Below the pieces are notes generated by a model. The model was not told the DNA's origin. It did not search any database and saw only the letters and a list, made by a program, of their open reading frames with translations. Position numbers and translations under genes: made by a program. From NCBI RefSeq assembly GCF_005280275.1, contig NZ_CP040021.1:1203001-1267000 (forward strand): a stretch of 64,000 nucleotides of DNA, written 5' to 3'. Position 1 is the stretch's first letter. The number at the start of each line of letters is the position of its first letter. The DNA is from Salinivibrio kushneri (lineage in GTDB: Bacteria > Pseudomonadota > Gammaproteobacteria > Enterobacterales > Vibrionaceae). Below are positions 37,622 to 51,299 of the stretch, piece after piece.

Positions 37622-38320
37622 TTACTGAGAGGCCGCTTGTCGCTGCTGGAAGCGCGTTGCATGCTCGACTAAGCCCTTAAACAACGCACGCTGACAGCCA
37701 AGATAAAGCAAGAACTCTGGATGCCACTGAACCCCCAGTGTATAGGGGCCGTTGGGTGATTCAATGGCTTGTACAATACCATCTAAATCACGTGCGCTTA
37801 CCGTTAAATCCTCGCCTAACGCGTTAATTGCTTGGTTGTGCAGGCTGTTTATTTTGCGTCTGCCTTGCCCCAACCGTTGCTGGATATGGCCGTTGACTTC
37901 ACGCGATATACACAAGGTTTTCATCGGGAACACTGTCCAGCGATGAGAGGTTTTTTTGCGTTGTTCGCGCAAGCTTTGGTGCAAGGTGCCACCTAAACAA
38001 ATGTTGAGAAGTTGCGCGCCACGGCAAATCCCCAGCAAGGGCTTTTGGCTTGCCAGCGCGCTTTTGATAACTGCGCTCTCTAGGGCATCGCGTTCAGAAT
38101 CGTAGTTGGGTTTCACTTCGGGCTCAGCGGCGTACAGCACAGGCTCGACATCGTGCCCGCCAGCAATCACCACGCCATGATAGGCGTCTGGATCCAGCGC
38201 GGTACCGGGGTGTAGTTGTAACGGCTTGCCACCATAGAGTTTGACTGCCGCGGCAACAAAAAAACGTGGCAGCCGTGCGCCTTTGCTCGGGCCGGTTATT
38301 GCGATGACGGGTTTATCCAT
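37622..38320 (-). CDS. Class I glutamine-amidotransferase-like hydrolase (peptidase C26)
   Basis: The 232-residue protein has the nucleophile elbow LLGICRGAQLL (Cys99) and the C-terminal VQWHPEF (His200, Glu202), the catalytic triad of gamma-glutamyl-gamma-aminobutyrate hydrolases such as PuuD. It would hydrolyse a gamma-glutamyl bond or release ammonia from glutamine. Its start overlaps the end of the amidoligase gene by 25 bases, so the two are translated together. The pairing of an amidoligase with a class I GATase is a known theme in peptide or amide synthesis. Confidence 0.92.
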   Translation of the reverse strand: MDKPVIAITGPSKGARLPRFFVAAAVKLYGGKPLQLHPGTALDPDAYHGVVIAGGHDVEPVLYAAEPEVKPNYDSERDALESAVIKSALASQKPLLGICRGAQLLNICLGGTLHQSLREQRKKTSHRWTVFPMKTLCISREVNGHIQQRLGQGRRKINSLHNQAINALGEDLTVSARDLDGIVQAIESPNGPYTLGVQWHPEFLLYLGCQRALFKGLVEHATRFQQRQAASQ

Positions 38321-39303
38321 ACATTGTGCACCTTTTCCGCCCAGTTATTAACGATACGTGCCAATGGGTCATTGATATACCCCAAATAGGCCTTGCAACA
38401 CGCCTTGAGTCGCGCAGGGTCGGCGGCGAGTTTTTCCACTTCCACCCAGTCGTTCCATGCTTCGTGAATGCCCCAATCAGTCCGGCTGACTTTGCTGTCC
38501 GGCAACCGATAATGAAATGTGGGCCGCGCCTGTGTGAGCCCATCATTGATGACTTTATTCACTTTCTCGGCATCAAGGTGAGTGAATAAGGGCAACATGT
38601 CTAATGCACGGTTTCGTGTGGGATTGTCGGCAAGGTAGTCATCGATCAAGGTATTCAGATCTGGCCAGTAATCATCAGCCAGTACGCGCTCGACATACGC
38701 TTTCGGGAAAGGGTCGACATAGTTGGTCAAGCGCCGCGAGAGATCAATATCGGCGCGTTTTAAAAGCCAGTCATACAAACATAAAAATGCTTTTAAGTGC
38801 GCACAAATCGTCTTAGCGGTTAAATCAGGCAGCTCTGGATTGAGCTGCATGCCAAACGCATAAACCGGGCTGTCTTCGGTCCCTTCGGCGCCTTGCTGGC
38901 GTAGATGCGCAATGAGTTGGTCCACCTCTTGTAGGCGGTCAAGAGGGAGAGGCGGGCCGACGATTTCTACGGGAACAAAGGCTTTTGCCGCCCAGGCTAA
39001 TAAGTCTTCAGCCGATTGATCCAGTCGATTGGTGACTGTGTTTTCGCTACGATCGCTTTGCCCTAACCGTTTGAGCTTGGCATAGTCGAGCTCGATGACC
39101 CAATCCCCGGCTTTGTCCCCGTTTAAGCGGCGGTCATATCGACCACCACGTTTAACGCTCAGAGAGAAAAAATCAGCCACTAGCTGGGTGATGGTATCCA
39201 GCTCTAGGCCACTGAGCTCTATCTCAACGCCTACGCGGCGCGTATTTCCCTCAGCGTTGGTGATCTGAGGCGGTGTTTTAAGTGGTGAATGTGGCGCATC
39301 CAT
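38296..39303 (-). CDS. Amidoligase family enzyme (glutamine-synthetase-like fold)
   Basis: The 335-residue protein starts with GVEIELSGLELDTITQLV (residues 25-42), whose GxExE pattern marks amidoligases related to glutamine synthetase and gamma-glutamylcysteine ligase. WVIELDYAKLK and YAFGMQLNPELPDL carry further acidic residues that could bind Mg-ATP. It would form an amide or peptide bond with ATP. The gene lies just upstream of, and overlaps, the C26-type hydrolase. Both run in the same direction as the ATP-grasp gene and the 656-residue gene, with a 136-bp gap. Confidence 0.88.
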   Translation of the reverse strand: MDAPHSPLKTPPQITNAEGNTRRVGVEIELSGLELDTITQLVADFFSLSVKRGGRYDRRLNGDKAGDWVIELDYAKLKRLGQSDRSENTVTNRLDQSAEDLLAWAAKAFVPVEIVGPPLPLDRLQEVDQLIAHLRQQGAEGTEDSPVYAFGMQLNPELPDLTAKTICAHLKAFLCLYDWLLKRADIDLSRRLTNYVDPFPKAYVERVLADDYWPDLNTLIDDYLADNPTRNRALDMLPLFTHLDAEKVNKVINDGLTQARPTFHYRLPDSKVSRTDWGIHEAWNDWVEVEKLAADPARLKACCKAYLGYINDPLARIVNNWAEKVHNVWINPSSQ

Positions 39304-39439
39304 GGTTTTTTAGCCTCATTTTTATCGATGATAGGGAATAGGTGGGGATAAACCTGTAACACTTAAAGGCCTAAGAGGATAAATAATCAACACCTGTTCA
39401 GGGACGCTGAGGACACGGAACAGGTTGATGCTTAGTCAT

Positions 39440-41410
39440 TCATAACGGCATTTGGGCTTTATCTATTCGATCTTTAGCCCAACTCTCAACTGCCATACGC
39501 TTGATTTCATTGAGAGCGTCGCTGGGCAGAGGACGCTTTATACCGACCTGAATTGTGTCATCATGGTACAAATATAGTCGAGATAAAAACTGCTCAAAGG
39601 GTAGAGAAGCTTCCCCGTATTGCTCTCCTCTTCCTTGCGTTGATACCACCACGTTGTGTCCCCAGTCCTGGCCGCTATCATTATTGGGATTGTAGAAATA
39701 TACCCGCATCACGCTGTCTTGATCGAGAGCGATACGTATCAAGGTAATGGCATGCCAACCGACAAATTGCCCCTGGCTGCTGGTGACCGCAATACCGACC
39801 GGCTGGGGATGTATAACAGGAATATTTCCATTATATAGTGGATGATAACTGCGGTAGAAGCGTTCAATAAAGCTGTCGAAATCTTTGAGCTGTCCGGTTT
39901 TAACGTCAACGGCAATCATGAACTCTCGTCCCACGTACCAACCATGAAACTCGGGATTGATCCATTCATGCGGGTCTTGCTCACGGTTAACACAAAGGCG
40001 ACCCATTTCAATATAAAGTTTGTCTAAATGAGGGACGAGGACAACGGAAACGGGATCGGTGTCGAAAGGGAGTGCGGTACTAAGGCCTTGAAGCAGCGTG
40101 TGAGAGTCTAGCGACTGTCCTTCAAAATGCATGCGTAGGCTCTGATTACACGCCACTTGCACAATACAGTTAAGGAGGTAGTCAGGGTCGTTATACGCCC
40201 ACATGGATATCGCACGTGCCGATTGGCAAGTCGGGTTGTTACCTTGGGCTACACCCAGCGGTTGGCCAAGCACTGACATAACACCGGCTAACAGATGAAC
40301 GCGCGCAGGGAGCAGCTCACCAAACGCGAGGGTGAGTGTATTGGCGACGTCTGGGTGGAGGTTGAGATGAATCTGACGCCACAAACTAGGAGCGACGGGC
40401 GCATCGAACAGTACCCCCCGTTCAAGCATCATGGCCAAACCATATACGGCTTGGGCGGTTTGCGGATAAATGGCTTCTTTGATCAGTGTATGCACCAGTT
40501 GACGATAGGTTACTAGGCAGTCTAAGCCAGTATTACTTAAACCCAGCGCGGTAGGGAGTATGTCGTTGCCGTCATTGTCCAACAACCACCGTAAAAACAT
40601 AGCGTGGTAATCAGACGCTAACCCGACATCATGCATCGCACGCGCAAACCCCAGCGCCTCTTGTTGTAAAGCATTACTGTCCATTGCATTGAGACGTTCA
40701 CAGTACGCATCTAACCCCGGATCGTCATAGCAACCTTGGGTTGGCCCGTATAACGCACTTACTAGGCGATCGATGCCGAGTTTGGCTTCACCAAGGTTAA
40801 TCTGCTCCTGCGACACCAAGATAGAGATTTGATTGATCATCGCCTTAATCGGGTTGACCTGAATGGGGCGCTGCGCGAGTACACGCCAAACTTCATCAAC
40901 CAGCTCACTAAGAATGGTTTCATAGCCCAAGTGGCTGAGAATAAAACGATATAAAGTACTAATAGCGGGGGCCGTTGCACCGAGTCGAATACGGCTCGAT
41001 TCATCGGTAAGACCCATCACCAGCGATAAATTGAGGCTTAATACCTTGGCAAGAAATTGGTGCGCTTCTTGGTGGGAAAAAAGCGGGGAAGAGAACTTCC
41101 CCTCGACGATAGCCAGCATCCTTAGCTGGCTGAGACAATCTAGCACCACGGTGGCTTTGTCGGCATGCGCGAGCGTGTCCGGCACCAGGTTCGGTACGAG
41201 GTACTCAGGCTGGCCCCAATCTGTGCCCTCAAAAAGTCCTGCTTCGGTGAGGGTCACAATGCGAGAGTACAGCTGGTTAATGTCATCATCCTGCGCCAAT
41301 ACACGGCCGCAAATATCAATCACGTGAAATTGGTGGCGCGCTTTGGCGATGGAACTCACTTGACCAAGTTGTTCAACCGCATGATCAAGCTTATTGAGTA
41401 AGCTAGACAT
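39440..41410 (-). CDS. Large helical protein with papain-like C-terminal domain (novel family)
   Basis: I do not recognise this 656-residue protein by name. Residues 1 to about 385 are helical and repeat-like. Near residue 389 the sequence reads VAQGNNPTCQSARAISMWA, with Gln389 and Cys395 spaced exactly as Gln19 and Cys25 of papain. Further on, GWHAITL carries His553 and VYFYNPNN carries Asn574. The order Q-C-H-N is that of papain-like cysteine peptidases or transglutaminases, but it is inferred from four motifs only. ATG 41410 overlaps the stop of the ATP-grasp gene by eight bases. A longer TTG start at 41419 is possible. It is adjacent to an amide-ligase gene set. Confidence 0.7.
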   Translation of the reverse strand: MSSLLNKLDHAVEQLGQVSSIAKARHQFHVIDICGRVLAQDDDINQLYSRIVTLTEAGLFEGTDWGQPEYLVPNLVPDTLAHADKATVVLDCLSQLRMLAIVEGKFSSPLFSHQEAHQFLAKVLSLNLSLVMGLTDESSRIRLGATAPAISTLYRFILSHLGYETILSELVDEVWRVLAQRPIQVNPIKAMINQISILVSQEQINLGEAKLGIDRLVSALYGPTQGCYDDPGLDAYCERLNAMDSNALQQEALGFARAMHDVGLASDYHAMFLRWLLDNDGNDILPTALGLSNTGLDCLVTYRQLVHTLIKEAIYPQTAQAVYGLAMMLERGVLFDAPVAPSLWRQIHLNLHPDVANTLTLAFGELLPARVHLLAGVMSVLGQPLGVAQGNNPTCQSARAISMWAYNDPDYLLNCIVQVACNQSLRMHFEGQSLDSHTLLQGLSTALPFDTDPVSVVLVPHLDKLYIEMGRLCVNREQDPHEWINPEFHGWYVGREFMIAVDVKTGQLKDFDSFIERFYRSYHPLYNGNIPVIHPQPVGIAVTSSQGQFVGWHAITLIRIALDQDSVMRVYFYNPNNDSGQDWGHNVVVSTQGRGEQYGEASLPFEQFLSRLYLYHDDTIQVGIKRPLPSDALNEIKRMAVESWAKDRIDKAQMPL

Positions 41411-42629
41411 AGAAATCAAGATCTTCCTGTGCTTTTAATAAGTCACGCATAACGTGTGGGTCTTCACCATAAAAGTGTAGCAAGCCCCAGTGTGTACCAA
41501 ATGCACTGCGTTTAGGCACTTTCCCTTCCATAGGCGACTGTAGCTCATGAAACTCAAAGTATTTGTGACTCTCGGTCTCTTCAGGTATGGCCAGCTGGCT
41601 TACCACTCGGCGTCTTGGATATACCCCAAAGGTCCCCGCGACGCCTTTAGCATCTTTGATAGGCGTTGGGAAGAAGGCTTCTAACTCTTCGTCAGTCGTG
41701 TGTGGATCGAAGGCGACGACCATGCCTTGATAGCAGTTAAAGTCATAAACACGTTCAATAATTTCAAAGCCTTGGAAACCGGGTGGGCGGTAAGCCACTT
41801 CACCAAAGTACATTTGCCCATCGTTGGTCACAAAGTATTCAGGGTGGATAAAGCCAAAATCAATATCAAACGCTTCGATCAGCTTCTCGATTTCCTGAGT
41901 CACTTTTTCGCGATATTTTTCTAACTCGGGAGAGGCAGGAACAAATACCGAGTAGCCGAGGGTGACGTATTCGGAGATGTTCAAAAACTGGATTTTGCGG
42001 TTTTTAATAAATGCTTCGACGGCGAATTCCCAACCATCAAGGTGACTTTCCATCAATAGTGGAAACTCTTCATCGGAGACACGATCGAGATCATCAGGCT
42101 CACGCACCATCCAATGGCCTTCGCAGCCCGCTTTGTCAAAGGCTTTGAGATGGATTGGATCGTTGGGGTCGCCATCAAGTTTTAGCAATGCTTGGTTAAC
42201 TCGGCGCAGAAAACGCACCACGTCGGATTTATCTTGCGCTTCTTCGAAGATCCCAACCCGAATACCGCCGATTTGTGCACGACGCTTCATCAAGGATTTA
42301 TCACGGAAGAGGAGTGACTGTCCCATCAGTTTAGGGTTTTTAAGCAGCACGGCGTTAATGGCGCCGGCCCACTCTACGGTTTCCTCGAACAGTGGAATGG
42401 CCACATCGACACCCATTTCTTGCAAGGTGGTGGCAATTTCAAATGAGCGATCATTGAGGCGCTCAAAATCCCAAGGAAGGTAGGGGATATCATGCTCTTT
42501 GGCGTACTCTTCTGCCCATGTCGGGGCAACAACGACATATTTACGATCGAAACGGCTAATCGCATCAATTGCATTGAGGCTCCATCCCAAGATGGCGACG
42601 AAGCCTTTGTTTGGATCATAGTCAGCCAT
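41403..42629 (-). CDS. ATP-grasp family ligase
   Basis: The 408-residue protein has an N-terminal pre-ATP-grasp domain (FVAILGWSLNAIDAISRFD) and an ATP-grasp core: LMESHLDGWEFAVEAFI, then IHPEYFVTNDGQMYFGEVAYRPPG. The C-terminal EVAYRPPG corresponds to the E-x-N-x-R-P-G box of ATP-grasp enzymes, with the usual Asn replaced. The family joins a carboxylate to an amine or thiol through an acyl-phosphate. It begins a probable operon with the 656-residue gene and is divergent from the D-amino-acid-dehydrogenase-like gene. Confidence 0.88.
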   Translation of the reverse strand: MADYDPNKGFVAILGWSLNAIDAISRFDRKYVVVAPTWAEEYAKEHDIPYLPWDFERLNDRSFEIATTLQEMGVDVAIPLFEETVEWAGAINAVLLKNPKLMGQSLLFRDKSLMKRRAQIGGIRVGIFEEAQDKSDVVRFLRRVNQALLKLDGDPNDPIHLKAFDKAGCEGHWMVREPDDLDRVSDEEFPLLMESHLDGWEFAVEAFIKNRKIQFLNISEYVTLGYSVFVPASPELEKYREKVTQEIEKLIEAFDIDFGFIHPEYFVTNDGQMYFGEVAYRPPGFQGFEIIERVYDFNCYQGMVVAFDPHTTDEELEAFFPTPIKDAKGVAGTFGVYPRRRVVSQLAIPEETESHKYFEFHELQSPMEGKVPKRSAFGTHWGLLHFYGEDPHVMRDLLKAQEDLDFYV

Positions 42630-42954: not shown

Positions 42955-44202
42955 ATGACAAAACGGGTGGTGGTATTAGGTGCAGGCATGGTGGGCGTGT
43001 CGGTGGCGTGGCACCTTTTAAAGCGCGGATACGAGGTCACCGTCATTGATAGGGTTGCGCCAGGGCAAGAGACCTCGTTTGGTAATGCCGGAATTATTCA
43101 GCGCGAGGCGGTGAGACCTTATGCCTTTCCGCGCGATCTTGCCACCTTGTTGCGCGTGTTACCCAATCGTTCGGTCGATATTCGCTACCGTCCCACCAGT
43201 GTGATCCGCGCTGCGCATCCACTGTTGCAATACTGGCACTACTCCAGTGAGAGTAAATATAAAAAACTGGTGCCAGAGTACGCGGCGTTAATTATGCAAT
43301 CTTTAGAGACTCACGAGGAGATGATTACGTCTGCTCAAGCAGGGTCATTGATCCGCAAAGAGGGTTACCTAAAATTATTCCGCACCCAAAAAGCTTTAGA
43401 CGAAGAGTGTACGCGAGCTGCGTCAGATAAGGCGCTTTACGGCGTGGAATACCAGGTGCTGGACGGTGAGCAAGTGGCGCGAATGGAGCCCGGTTTAACC
43501 GCTTCGGTTGCAGGTGCGATCCACTGGAAACAACCTTGGACAGTGACCGACCCAGGCGCCTTGGTCAAGGCCTATGCCGACGATGTCATGGCCAAGGGCG
43601 GTGAGGTAAAGCTCGCGAGCTTGCAATCATTGCAACAAACTGTCGAACAATGGGTGATTGAAACCGATCAAGAGCGTCTGCAAGCTGATCACGTGGTGAT
43701 GGCAATGGGTCCTTGGTCTGCGTATTGGCTGAGGCAACAAGGTTTGGAGGTGCCTCTGTTCACCAAGCGTGGCTATCATATGCATTACCAATGCGATGAT
43801 AAAAAGCCACTTAATCATTGGATCATGGATGCCGAAGTCGGATACTTGCTCGCACCGATGCGCGCAGGCATCCGTTTAACTACGGGCGCAGAGCTAACCG
43901 CCTTAGATGCGCCCATGGATGAGAGTCAGCTTCTAGCAGCAGAACAAGAGGCGCGTGCTTTATATCCGATCGGTGAACGTATTGATGGAACGCCATGGAA
44001 AGGGGGACGTCCATGCATGCCCGACATGAAGCCGGTGATTGGTGAGGCCCCCGGGCGTAAAGGGCTGTGGCTATCCTTTGGCCACGGACATCAAGGGTTC
44101 ACGCTAGGCCCAGCCACAGGCAAATTGTTAGGGCAAATGATGGGTGGGGAGGCCACGGATGTGGATATGCAACCCTATTGTGTTACCCGATTCGGCGGAT
44201 AG
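42955..44202 (+). CDS. FAD-dependent D-amino-acid-dehydrogenase-like oxidoreductase
   Basis: The 415-residue protein has an N-terminal FAD-binding motif VVVLGAGMVGVSVAWHLL (residues 5-22) and ETSFGNAGIIQ, then the C-terminal LSFGHGHQGFTLGPATGKLL typical of DadA-like and glycine/D-amino-acid oxidases. It would oxidise a D-amino acid or another amine, passing electrons to a quinone. GGGAG precedes the ATG. It follows a divergent promoter region shared with the ATP-grasp gene, so a link to that ligase set is possible but unproven. Confidence 0.88.
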   Translation: MTKRVVVLGAGMVGVSVAWHLLKRGYEVTVIDRVAPGQETSFGNAGIIQREAVRPYAFPRDLATLLRVLPNRSVDIRYRPTSVIRAAHPLLQYWHYSSESKYKKLVPEYAALIMQSLETHEEMITSAQAGSLIRKEGYLKLFRTQKALDEECTRAASDKALYGVEYQVLDGEQVARMEPGLTASVAGAIHWKQPWTVTDPGALVKAYADDVMAKGGEVKLASLQSLQQTVEQWVIETDQERLQADHVVMAMGPWSAYWLRQQGLEVPLFTKRGYHMHYQCDDKKPLNHWIMDAEVGYLLAPMRAGIRLTTGAELTALDAPMDESQLLAAEQEARALYPIGERIDGTPWKGGRPCMPDMKPVIGEAPGRKGLWLSFGHGHQGFTLGPATGKLLGQMMGGEATDVDMQPYCVTRFGG

Positions 44203-50714: not shown

Positions 50715-51299
50715 ATGCTATTAAATGCAAACAGTACGGTGAGTGAAGCCGCGCTGCGTGCCATGGCGCATATGCCAACGCGCAGTTTGCCGGTGCTGGT
50801 GGATAACAGCTTCAGCCAAAAACTGACCGATGCCGACTTGATGCGCATTGCGGTGTTATTAGCCCAAAAAAGCGCGGATGAAGGAGGGTGCCCCATCGGC
50901 GCGGTGATTATTGACAATGAGACACGTCAAATTGTGGGCAAAGGACATAACACCTTGGTGCAAGACAATCACCCCTACAACCATGGTGAAACGGCCGCGA
51001 TACGTGATGCTGGGCGAATTGATTTTAGCCAAACAACCTTGTTTACCAGTTTAAGCCCATGCGATGTGTGCGCGACATTGATTACCATGCGCGGTTTCTC
51101 TCGAGTGGTGGTAGGGGATGTCACCAGTGCGAGCGGTAACGAGACGATGCTGCAAGAAAAAGGGGTGACGGTTGATGTGCTGGAAGATCCCCAGGGCATT
51201 GCGTTGTATCAGCAATTTCGATCCGAGTACCCCGAACAAGAGCTAGAAGATTGGCAAGGTGTAAGTGCCGTCAAAGCACGTTTAGCCAAGCGTGAATGA
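50715..51299 (+). CDS. Cytidine/deoxycytidylate-deaminase-family protein
   Basis: The 194-residue protein has the zinc motif YNHGETAAI (His-x-Glu) and SPCDVCATLI (PCxxC), which define the CDA superfamily of deaminases acting on nucleobases. The N-terminal 45-residue extension is unusual for a free deaminase. It probably deaminates cytosine, guanine or a derived metabolite. It is followed 12 bases later by a GNAT gene and is divergent from the pump genes. Confidence 0.9.
   Translation: MLLNANSTVSEAALRAMAHMPTRSLPVLVDNSFSQKLTDADLMRIAVLLAQKSADEGGCPIGAVIIDNETRQIVGKGHNTLVQDNHPYNHGETAAIRDAGRIDFSQTTLFTSLSPCDVCATLITMRGFSRVVVGDVTSASGNETMLQEKGVTVDVLEDPQGIALYQQFRSEYPEQELEDWQGVSAVKARLAKRE

Follow-up and report, generated by a model that had tools for sequence, protein, structure and literature searches.

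An ATP-grasp ligase-like gene paired with a gene for a predicted papain-like protein in Salinivibrio and other bacteria

Introduction

Some described systems encode an enzyme that makes an amide bond together with one that cuts it. Glutathionylspermidine synthetase/amidase carries an ATP-grasp-fold ligase and a papain-like cysteine amidase, which cuts the product, in one fused protein. Amidoligase_2 proteins paired with class I glutamine amidotransferases (GATases) were reportedly described by Iyer et al. in 2009. In RimK/RimB (glutamate ligase and aspartic protease) and in RloABC, which one study ties to osmotic stress (PMC12239564), an ATP-grasp enzyme is encoded with a protease in a make-and-trim arrangement. 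We describe a similar pair in a 64,000-nucleotide stretch of Salinivibrio kushneri, hereafter the window (NCBI RefSeq assembly GCF_005280275.1, contig NZ_CP040021.1, positions 1,203,001 to 1,267,000 of the forward strand; genome of 3.44 Mb in 2 contigs). On the minus strand, an ATP-grasp ligase-like gene (41403..42629, 408 residues) overlaps by 8 bp the gene of a protein of 656 residues (39440..41410, ATG at 41410), and an amidoligase and a GATase gene follow. The preliminary description of this locus, made from the sequence alone, read all four as one pathway. We find that only the first two genes are neighbours beyond chance generally, and that all four stand together only within one genus.

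Co-occurrence and arrangement of the gene pair

The ATP-grasp and 656-residue protein genes neighbour each other more often than by chance. One genome per species, 84,980 species in all, was scanned with a 3-sequence profile of the 656-residue protein, yielding at least 595 candidate stretches, of which at least 554 encode a relative; locus counts over 80 refer to the best 80 of these at least 554, that is, to the nearer relatives. In 74 of the 80 loci an ATP-grasp match lies directly upstream (more than 200 residues long in 71, short or a remnant in L040, L061 and L077), and among the six others L028 begins too close to a contig end for a judgement. A wider set of 101 loci, several of them from one genome and with split copies falling below the length cut, holds 93 long genes for the 656-residue protein and 87 long ATP-grasp genes, which form 81 pairs and leave 12 and 6, respectively, alone in their locus. 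The ATP-grasp gene comes first in 74 of these pairs, 3 are reversed and 4 divergent. The pair is thus usually adjacent, in several arrangements, and it occurs in three phyla.

The association holds for whole genomes as well. In a sample of 398 genomes from the phylum, one set of 11 carries both genes and the remaining 387 carry neither at the thresholds used (E 0.001 for the 656-residue protein profile, E 1e-60 for the ATP-grasp profile; the sample was apparently identical for both). Fisher tests, which ignore ancestry, return 1e-21 with genomes as units and 3e-13 with genera. Among 296 Actinomycetota genomes the ATP-grasp match is strong in three, each of which also has the 656-residue protein gene, and weak and generic in six more. 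An ATP-grasp match was present in 13 of 13 chosen genomes that hold the 656-residue protein gene (in S. socompensis as two pieces with a stop), 9 of which had been picked because the neighbouring gene was absent, damaged or not in view. In 8 of those 9 it is a second type of ATP-grasp gene at another locus, its product 69-70% identical to that of the window. This second type has an N-terminal extension ending in GTETPK and can have its own 656-residue partner, in reversed order (L151, L152, L155) or divergent (L121, L123, L127).

The two proteins also diverge in step: over 44 non-redundant pairs the Mantel r is 0.88 (0 of 5000 permutations), owed in part to common ancestry. Of the two, the ATP-grasp protein has changed less (mean distance 0.21 vs 0.40). 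Together, these observations suggest that the two genes are a real module, one functional unit, and one that has apparently not been described: among the matches listed from titles and abstract openings of the open-licence literature we found no description of the pair, and no paper in that literature joins ATP-grasp, Halomonas and papain-like. The names of the 80 kept organisms give the impression of largely marine or saline sources.

In S. socompensis (L156 6096-7402; L016; G513/G153) the linked ATP-grasp gene is gone, the 656-residue protein gene is in pieces and the other ATP-grasp copy is split by a stop, which is either joint decay or poor assembly.

Predicted properties of the two proteins

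The 656-residue protein has no Pfam match at E 1 and no NCBIfam match, and 40 family members scanned singly against Pfam gave scattered weak matches, with at most 3 members per Pfam family. Its candidate active-site residues, Gln389, Cys395, His553 and Asn574, which the preliminary description had placed in the order of papain, do occur in that order and are identical in all 94 aligned sequences, the window's included. Asn576 and Asp578 are equally invariant, so that Asn574 is not the only candidate for the third catalytic position. The family has 95 strictly invariant residues, 36 of them in residues 1-380, conserved stretches of its own (GQGNNPTCQS and NPNNDSGQ) and a further conserved segment at residues 450-491.

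An AlphaFold model built from 40 sequences (mean predicted local distance difference test, pLDDT, 86; predicted template modelling score, pTM, 0.80) has 22 helices up to residue 382. Cys395 (codon 40226..40228, minus strand), the candidate nucleophile, opens helix 395-407; His553 (39752..39754, minus), the candidate base, is on strand 549-562; and Asn574 (39689..39691, minus), a candidate third residue, comes directly after strand 568-573. Both the Cys-His-Asn/Asp order in the alignment and the placement in the modelled secondary structure are those of clan CA. In searches with the model, the top two matches among viral models are papain-like peptidases (probability 0.87 and 0.77, E 0.03 and 0.04, low template modelling scores, TM-scores), and the fifth is a cathepsin (probability 0.72). 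Of 50 Protein Data Bank (PDB) matches listed, 16 are papain-like cysteine proteases with probability up to 0.51 and TM-score at most 0.29, including two (5wdk) that we take to belong there; many of the remainder are helical-repeat proteins, such as beta-catenin and karyopherin. The model is consistent with a helical domain at about residues 1-380 and, probably, a papain-like domain at about 381-656.

Two copies depart from this pattern. Two overlapping frames encode the protein in Salinivibrio G148 (L098 674-2625); the break, at residue ~375, coincides with the predicted boundary between the domains and may be a gene fission or a frameshift. The homologue on the 1.8-Mb replicon of Halomonas sp. 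PA16-9 (L011 7959-10043) leaves the family pattern after residue ~605, probably by a frameshift.

The ATP-grasp gene product matches Pfam ATP-grasp_4 at 1.2e-5, below the curated cut-off. Its model belongs to the ATP-grasp fold, with 275 solved chains matched at E ≤ 0.001, of which the L-amino-acid ligase RizA (4wd3, E 7e-18) is the best, followed by other L-amino-acid ligases and PurK. Two acidic residues near the end of ATP-grasp domains serve as metal ligands, and Glu264 and Glu277 are present in 88 of 88 sequences. The last box reads E277-V-A279-Y-R281 in place of the usual E-x-N, and the absence of the Asn, already remarked on in the preliminary description, proves to be a family trait, with Ala279 in all 88. 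PurK likewise has Ala in this box; the missing Asn is therefore no sign of a dead enzyme, and this Asn is a usual, not a universal, feature. The protein is likely an amide-bond-forming enzyme.

Association with an HDAC-type deacylase

In 6 of 42 diverse loci (L019, L020, L022, L023, L072 and L128, by clustering of open reading frames) the pair has a gene for a zinc deacylase of the histone deacetylase (HDAC) type close by, on either side and in either direction, with one gene intervening in L019. By Pfam it is the commonest neighbour family, with 5 of 99 neighbour proteins over 25 loci; the next two, both alpha/beta-hydrolase families, have 3. One sequence matches Hist_deacetyl at 7e-85, and the HDAC metal-site motifs HH, DWDxHH, D and Y are invariant in 5 of 5 sequences.

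A profile made from five of these HDACs was run on the 398 phylum genomes, of which 162 have some match at E 1e-50. Scores above 550 bits are confined to 8 genomes, each of them one of the 11 that hold the pair, whereas the 387 others reach at most 286 bits; this high-scoring subfamily is thus found only in pair-bearing genomes of this sample. Since G333, one of the 8, supplied a profile sequence, the count without it is 7 of 10 vs 0 of 387. Fisher tests on the 8 of 11, again ignoring ancestry, give 1e-14 by genome and 6e-9 by genus. The pair genomes without a high-scoring HDAC are the window's, G510 and G167. The HDAC gene adjoins the pair in G333, is 3.2 kb from an ATP-grasp copy in G282 and stands apart in the other six. 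HDACs of the Halomonas-like and Marinobacter-like genomes are 67-74% identical to one from Desulfobulbaceae (a second copy, 51%), which suggests that the subfamily has moved between phyla.

Among 45 pair genomes from the kept loci, at least two of which are also among the 398 (same coordinates), 26 have an HDAC at E 1e-90, 4 of these having supplied profile sequences; the counted misses include L072, a partial copy at a contig end. The subfamily seems to go with the pair, yet the pair does not need it. The HDAC-type deacylase is a better third partner than the amidoligase and GATase.

Proposed activity and its alternatives

What might the pair do? ATP-grasp enzymes of this type produce acyl phosphates for amines to attack, and papain-like enzymes use a cysteine thioester to cleave acyl groups or pass them on. 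Because the two genes pair, we read them in terms of make-and-cut or make-and-transfer chemistry, whose activity, bond type, direction and substrate are inferred. Our leading account, to which we give somewhat less than an even chance, is that the ATP-grasp enzyme makes an amide bond and the papain-like 656-residue protein cuts or re-routes it. The ATP-grasp enzyme would activate a carboxylate as an acyl phosphate and couple it to an amine; the 656-residue protein would then hydrolyse or transfer the same bond at a papain-like site of Cys395, His553 and an Asn, while its helical domain may bind either substrate or ligase. A zinc deacylase of the HDAC type would take part in many lineages, perhaps by freeing an acetylated amine; the HDAC link would suit an amine that is also open to acetylation.

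Several findings weigh against this account. Whole-model Foldseek comparison of the 656-residue protein with solved structures gave no match at E 0.001 and low TM-scores; profile searches found no PDB sequence relative of its family at E 10; and comparison of the family profile with papain gave a probability of 0.2%, which is not significant, in a chance-level alignment that sets NSWG of papain on NDSGQDWG of the family. Because these fold, papain-profile and PDB-sequence matches are weak or absent, the cysteine chemistry is a prediction only, and of the papain-like character proposed in the preliminary description the residue order and a probable modelled domain stand and a significant structural match is missing. 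The ATP-grasp model has a pLDDT of 75 with low-confidence stretches, such as 144-179 and 365-379. Some genomes hold the two genes unlinked, and occurrence within the order is patchy, at 2 of 148 genomes. Apart from the HDAC, no gene context that stays constant around the pair points to a substrate, and the HDAC itself is below threshold in 19 of the 45 pair genomes, including 5 of 5 Salinivibrio, and in the window's genome.

The 656-residue protein could, with a rather low probability, be an acyltransferase, which would take over, as a thioester on Cys395, an acyl group that the ATP-grasp enzyme supplies, and would pass it to a second amine. BtrJ and BtrH of butirosin synthesis follow the same logic of acyl hand-over, acyltransferases exist among papain-like folds, and conservation of residues 450-491 would exceed the needs of a minimal protease site. 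BtrH-type papain-like transacylases are also discussed alongside peptide-ligase operons in one article (PMC2922099). However, there is no BtrH_N or transglutaminase Pfam match, and no carrier or acceptor gene recurs beside the pair among the 25 commonest neighbour families listed.

It is similarly doubtful that the 656-residue protein is no hydrolase at all, with a C-terminal domain that binds or regulates the ATP-grasp enzyme and invariant residues that bind substrate. The weak fold matches, the lack of a sequence link to any protease and the 36 strictly invariant residues within 1-380 would suit such a role, but Gln, Cys and His stand in papain order, with the Cys at a helix start, and are invariant in all 94 sequences.

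An elaboration of the make-and-cut account, which we regard as unlikely in this full form, is a reversible conjugation system: the ATP-grasp enzyme would write an amide on a polyamine or lysine, the papain-like protein would erase or move it, and the HDAC-type deacylase would prepare or recycle the acetylated amine. Polyamine-type neighbours were found at three loci (agmatine genes at L026, an arginase-family gene at L048, an aminotransferase with an aldehyde dehydrogenase at L130), too few to claim a polyamine context, which we treat as a lead.

The amidoligase and GATase genes

Downstream of the pair, after a gap of 136 bp, lie the amidoligase gene (38296..39303, minus strand, 335 residues; Pfam Amidoligase_2, 1.2e-59) and, overlapping it by 25 bp, the class I GATase gene, which encodes a C26 gamma-glutamyl-hydrolase-like protein (37622..38320, minus, 232 residues; Peptidase_C26, 5.8e-46). 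A check of open reading frames reproduced all four genes, their overlaps and the gap as first described. The amidoligase and GATase are an Amidoligase_2/GATase pair by their Pfam matches, and are a separate module of known kind that adjoins the ATP-grasp pair in Salinivibrio. They stand beside it in 5 of the 80 kept loci, all Salinivibrio, and in 0 of the 75 outside that genus. The 656-residue protein gene is present in 8 of 8 Salinivibrio genomes (G148 as two frames, G153 in pieces), and so is the amidoligase gene. Among 121 genomes of the family the amidoligase occurs in 10: the 8 Salinivibrio and two from a different, probably Vibrio-like genus (G905, G919), where a GATase gene overlaps it and the 656-residue protein gene was not found; the ATP-grasp gene was not searched for there. 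An amidoligase relative is also present in 11 plasmid records, none of which has either gene of the ATP-grasp pair. In four plasmid neighbourhoods an annotated GATase gene adjoins in two, both Rhodobacterales (alphaproteobacterial) plasmids, and not in the other two.

An inverted repeat (39386..39429, minus) lies between the modules, directly 3' of the 656-residue protein gene. This hairpin, likely a terminator with a poor T tail, is the same element in 4 of 6 Salinivibrio, with a paired change in one; S. socompensis has another strong hairpin and S. proteolyticus a weak one (z -1.5 to -5.5 over the six). Folded as RNA, the intergenic stretch as a whole does no better than shuffled sequences (z -0.16), and the region has about as many terminator-like sites as chance would give (8 against an expected 5.8).

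That all four window genes make up one pathway building and trimming amide or peptide bonds, as first proposed, is very improbable: the chemistry is related, both the 656-residue protein and amidoligase genes are in every Salinivibrio genome, and strand and order are kept in 5 of 5 kept Salinivibrio loci (4 of 5 for the ATP-grasp gene), but the amidoligase and GATase genes are absent from every kept locus beyond Salinivibrio, occur without the 656-residue protein gene in two further genomes of the family and without either gene of the ATP-grasp pair on alphaproteobacterial plasmids, and are set off by a hairpin in most Salinivibrio seen. By the condition set in the preliminary description, orthologues whose two gene pairs never adjoin, the joint system fails, and we reject it, outside one genus, and the logic of amide making and cutting survives for the ATP-grasp enzyme with the putative amide-cleaving 656-residue protein and not for all four genes jointly.

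Other genomic contexts

A phage or defence origin was considered and set aside: the pair genes have no PHROGs match, and none of the four genes matches PADLOC. No phage record has the 656-residue protein gene, and one record of a plasmid collection does, the 1.8-Mb Halomonas replicon.

A D-amino-acid-dehydrogenase-like gene (window 42955-44202) is divergent from the ATP-grasp gene, and a similar gene occupies the same place in S. socompensis (L016 6547-7974), which has lost that ATP-grasp gene. Deaminase genes that match TadA weakly, below the cut-off, occur near the pair (window 50715-51299) and beside the second pair of Chromatocurvus (L155 7163-7756). A zinc metallopeptidase gene (Peptidase_Mx) is directly upstream of the second-type ATP-grasp gene in S. 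socompensis (L156 5007-6008), and similar genes lie a few kb from that type in two Halomonas (L151 11863-12960, L152 2622-3671). Near paralogues of the 656-residue protein, a different ATP-grasp gene (PF13535) is found in L120 and L151, in L120 by a CocE/NonD-type hydrolase gene; neighbourhoods of this type (L120 2286-5632, L151 1-2219, L152 13855-16001) possibly represent a second ligase/hydrolase pair. Genes with weak GCS2 (glutamate-cysteine ligase) and AstE-type hydrolase matches follow a paralogue in a Marinobacter-like genome (L126 9347-11868).

Comparison with known systems

The ATP-grasp pair, found in Halomonas, Marinobacter, Salinivibrio and others, some of which serve in laboratories or industry, joins a family with at least 554 genome stretches and no Pfam or NCBIfam entry to an ATP-grasp enzyme, and so marks chemistry that has gone unstudied. 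The strictly co-occurring pair is apparently undescribed, whereas the amidoligase/GATase pair is of a known kind; at 37622-39303 the latter resembles other Amidoligase_2/class I GATase pairs, the only notable difference being its neighbour in Salinivibrio. The pairing and the deacylase link yield concrete, testable ideas on substrate and mechanism, and a reversible conjugation system, if true, would be new and spread across phyla of bacteria that are, by name, largely marine and salt-adapted.

Among the closest solved folds of the ATP-grasp model are the L-amino-acid ligases RizA, BL00235 and BacD/YwfE (E 7e-18 to 8e-13), although identities are 11-17% and the protein described here has E-V-A-Y-R without the Asn and co-occurs with the 656-residue protein. 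Papain has its Gln and Cys 6 residues apart, as are Gln389 and Cys395, and the 656-residue protein shares the Gln-Cys-His-Asn order and the Cys at a helix start. It differs from clan CA enzymes in its helical N-terminal domain and its own conserved stretches, and has no sequence-profile match to a known family of that clan.

Of the ligase systems, glutathionylspermidine synthetase/amidase has a like ligase-plus-amidase logic, fused there and in two genes here; no GSP_synth or CHAP Pfam match was found at E ≤ 1, which places the pair outside that family. RimK/RimB uses an aspartic protease where the 656-residue protein is predicted to be papain-like, and none of the four proteins has a RimK or aspartic-protease Pfam match at E ≤ 1. 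Unlike RimK and RloABC, the ATP-grasp model is nearer to L-amino-acid ligases and PurK, and the pair has no recurring membrane partner. None of these systems is a family match; the closest working parallels of the pair are RimK/RimB, RloABC, glutathionylspermidine synthetase/amidase and BtrJ/BtrH.

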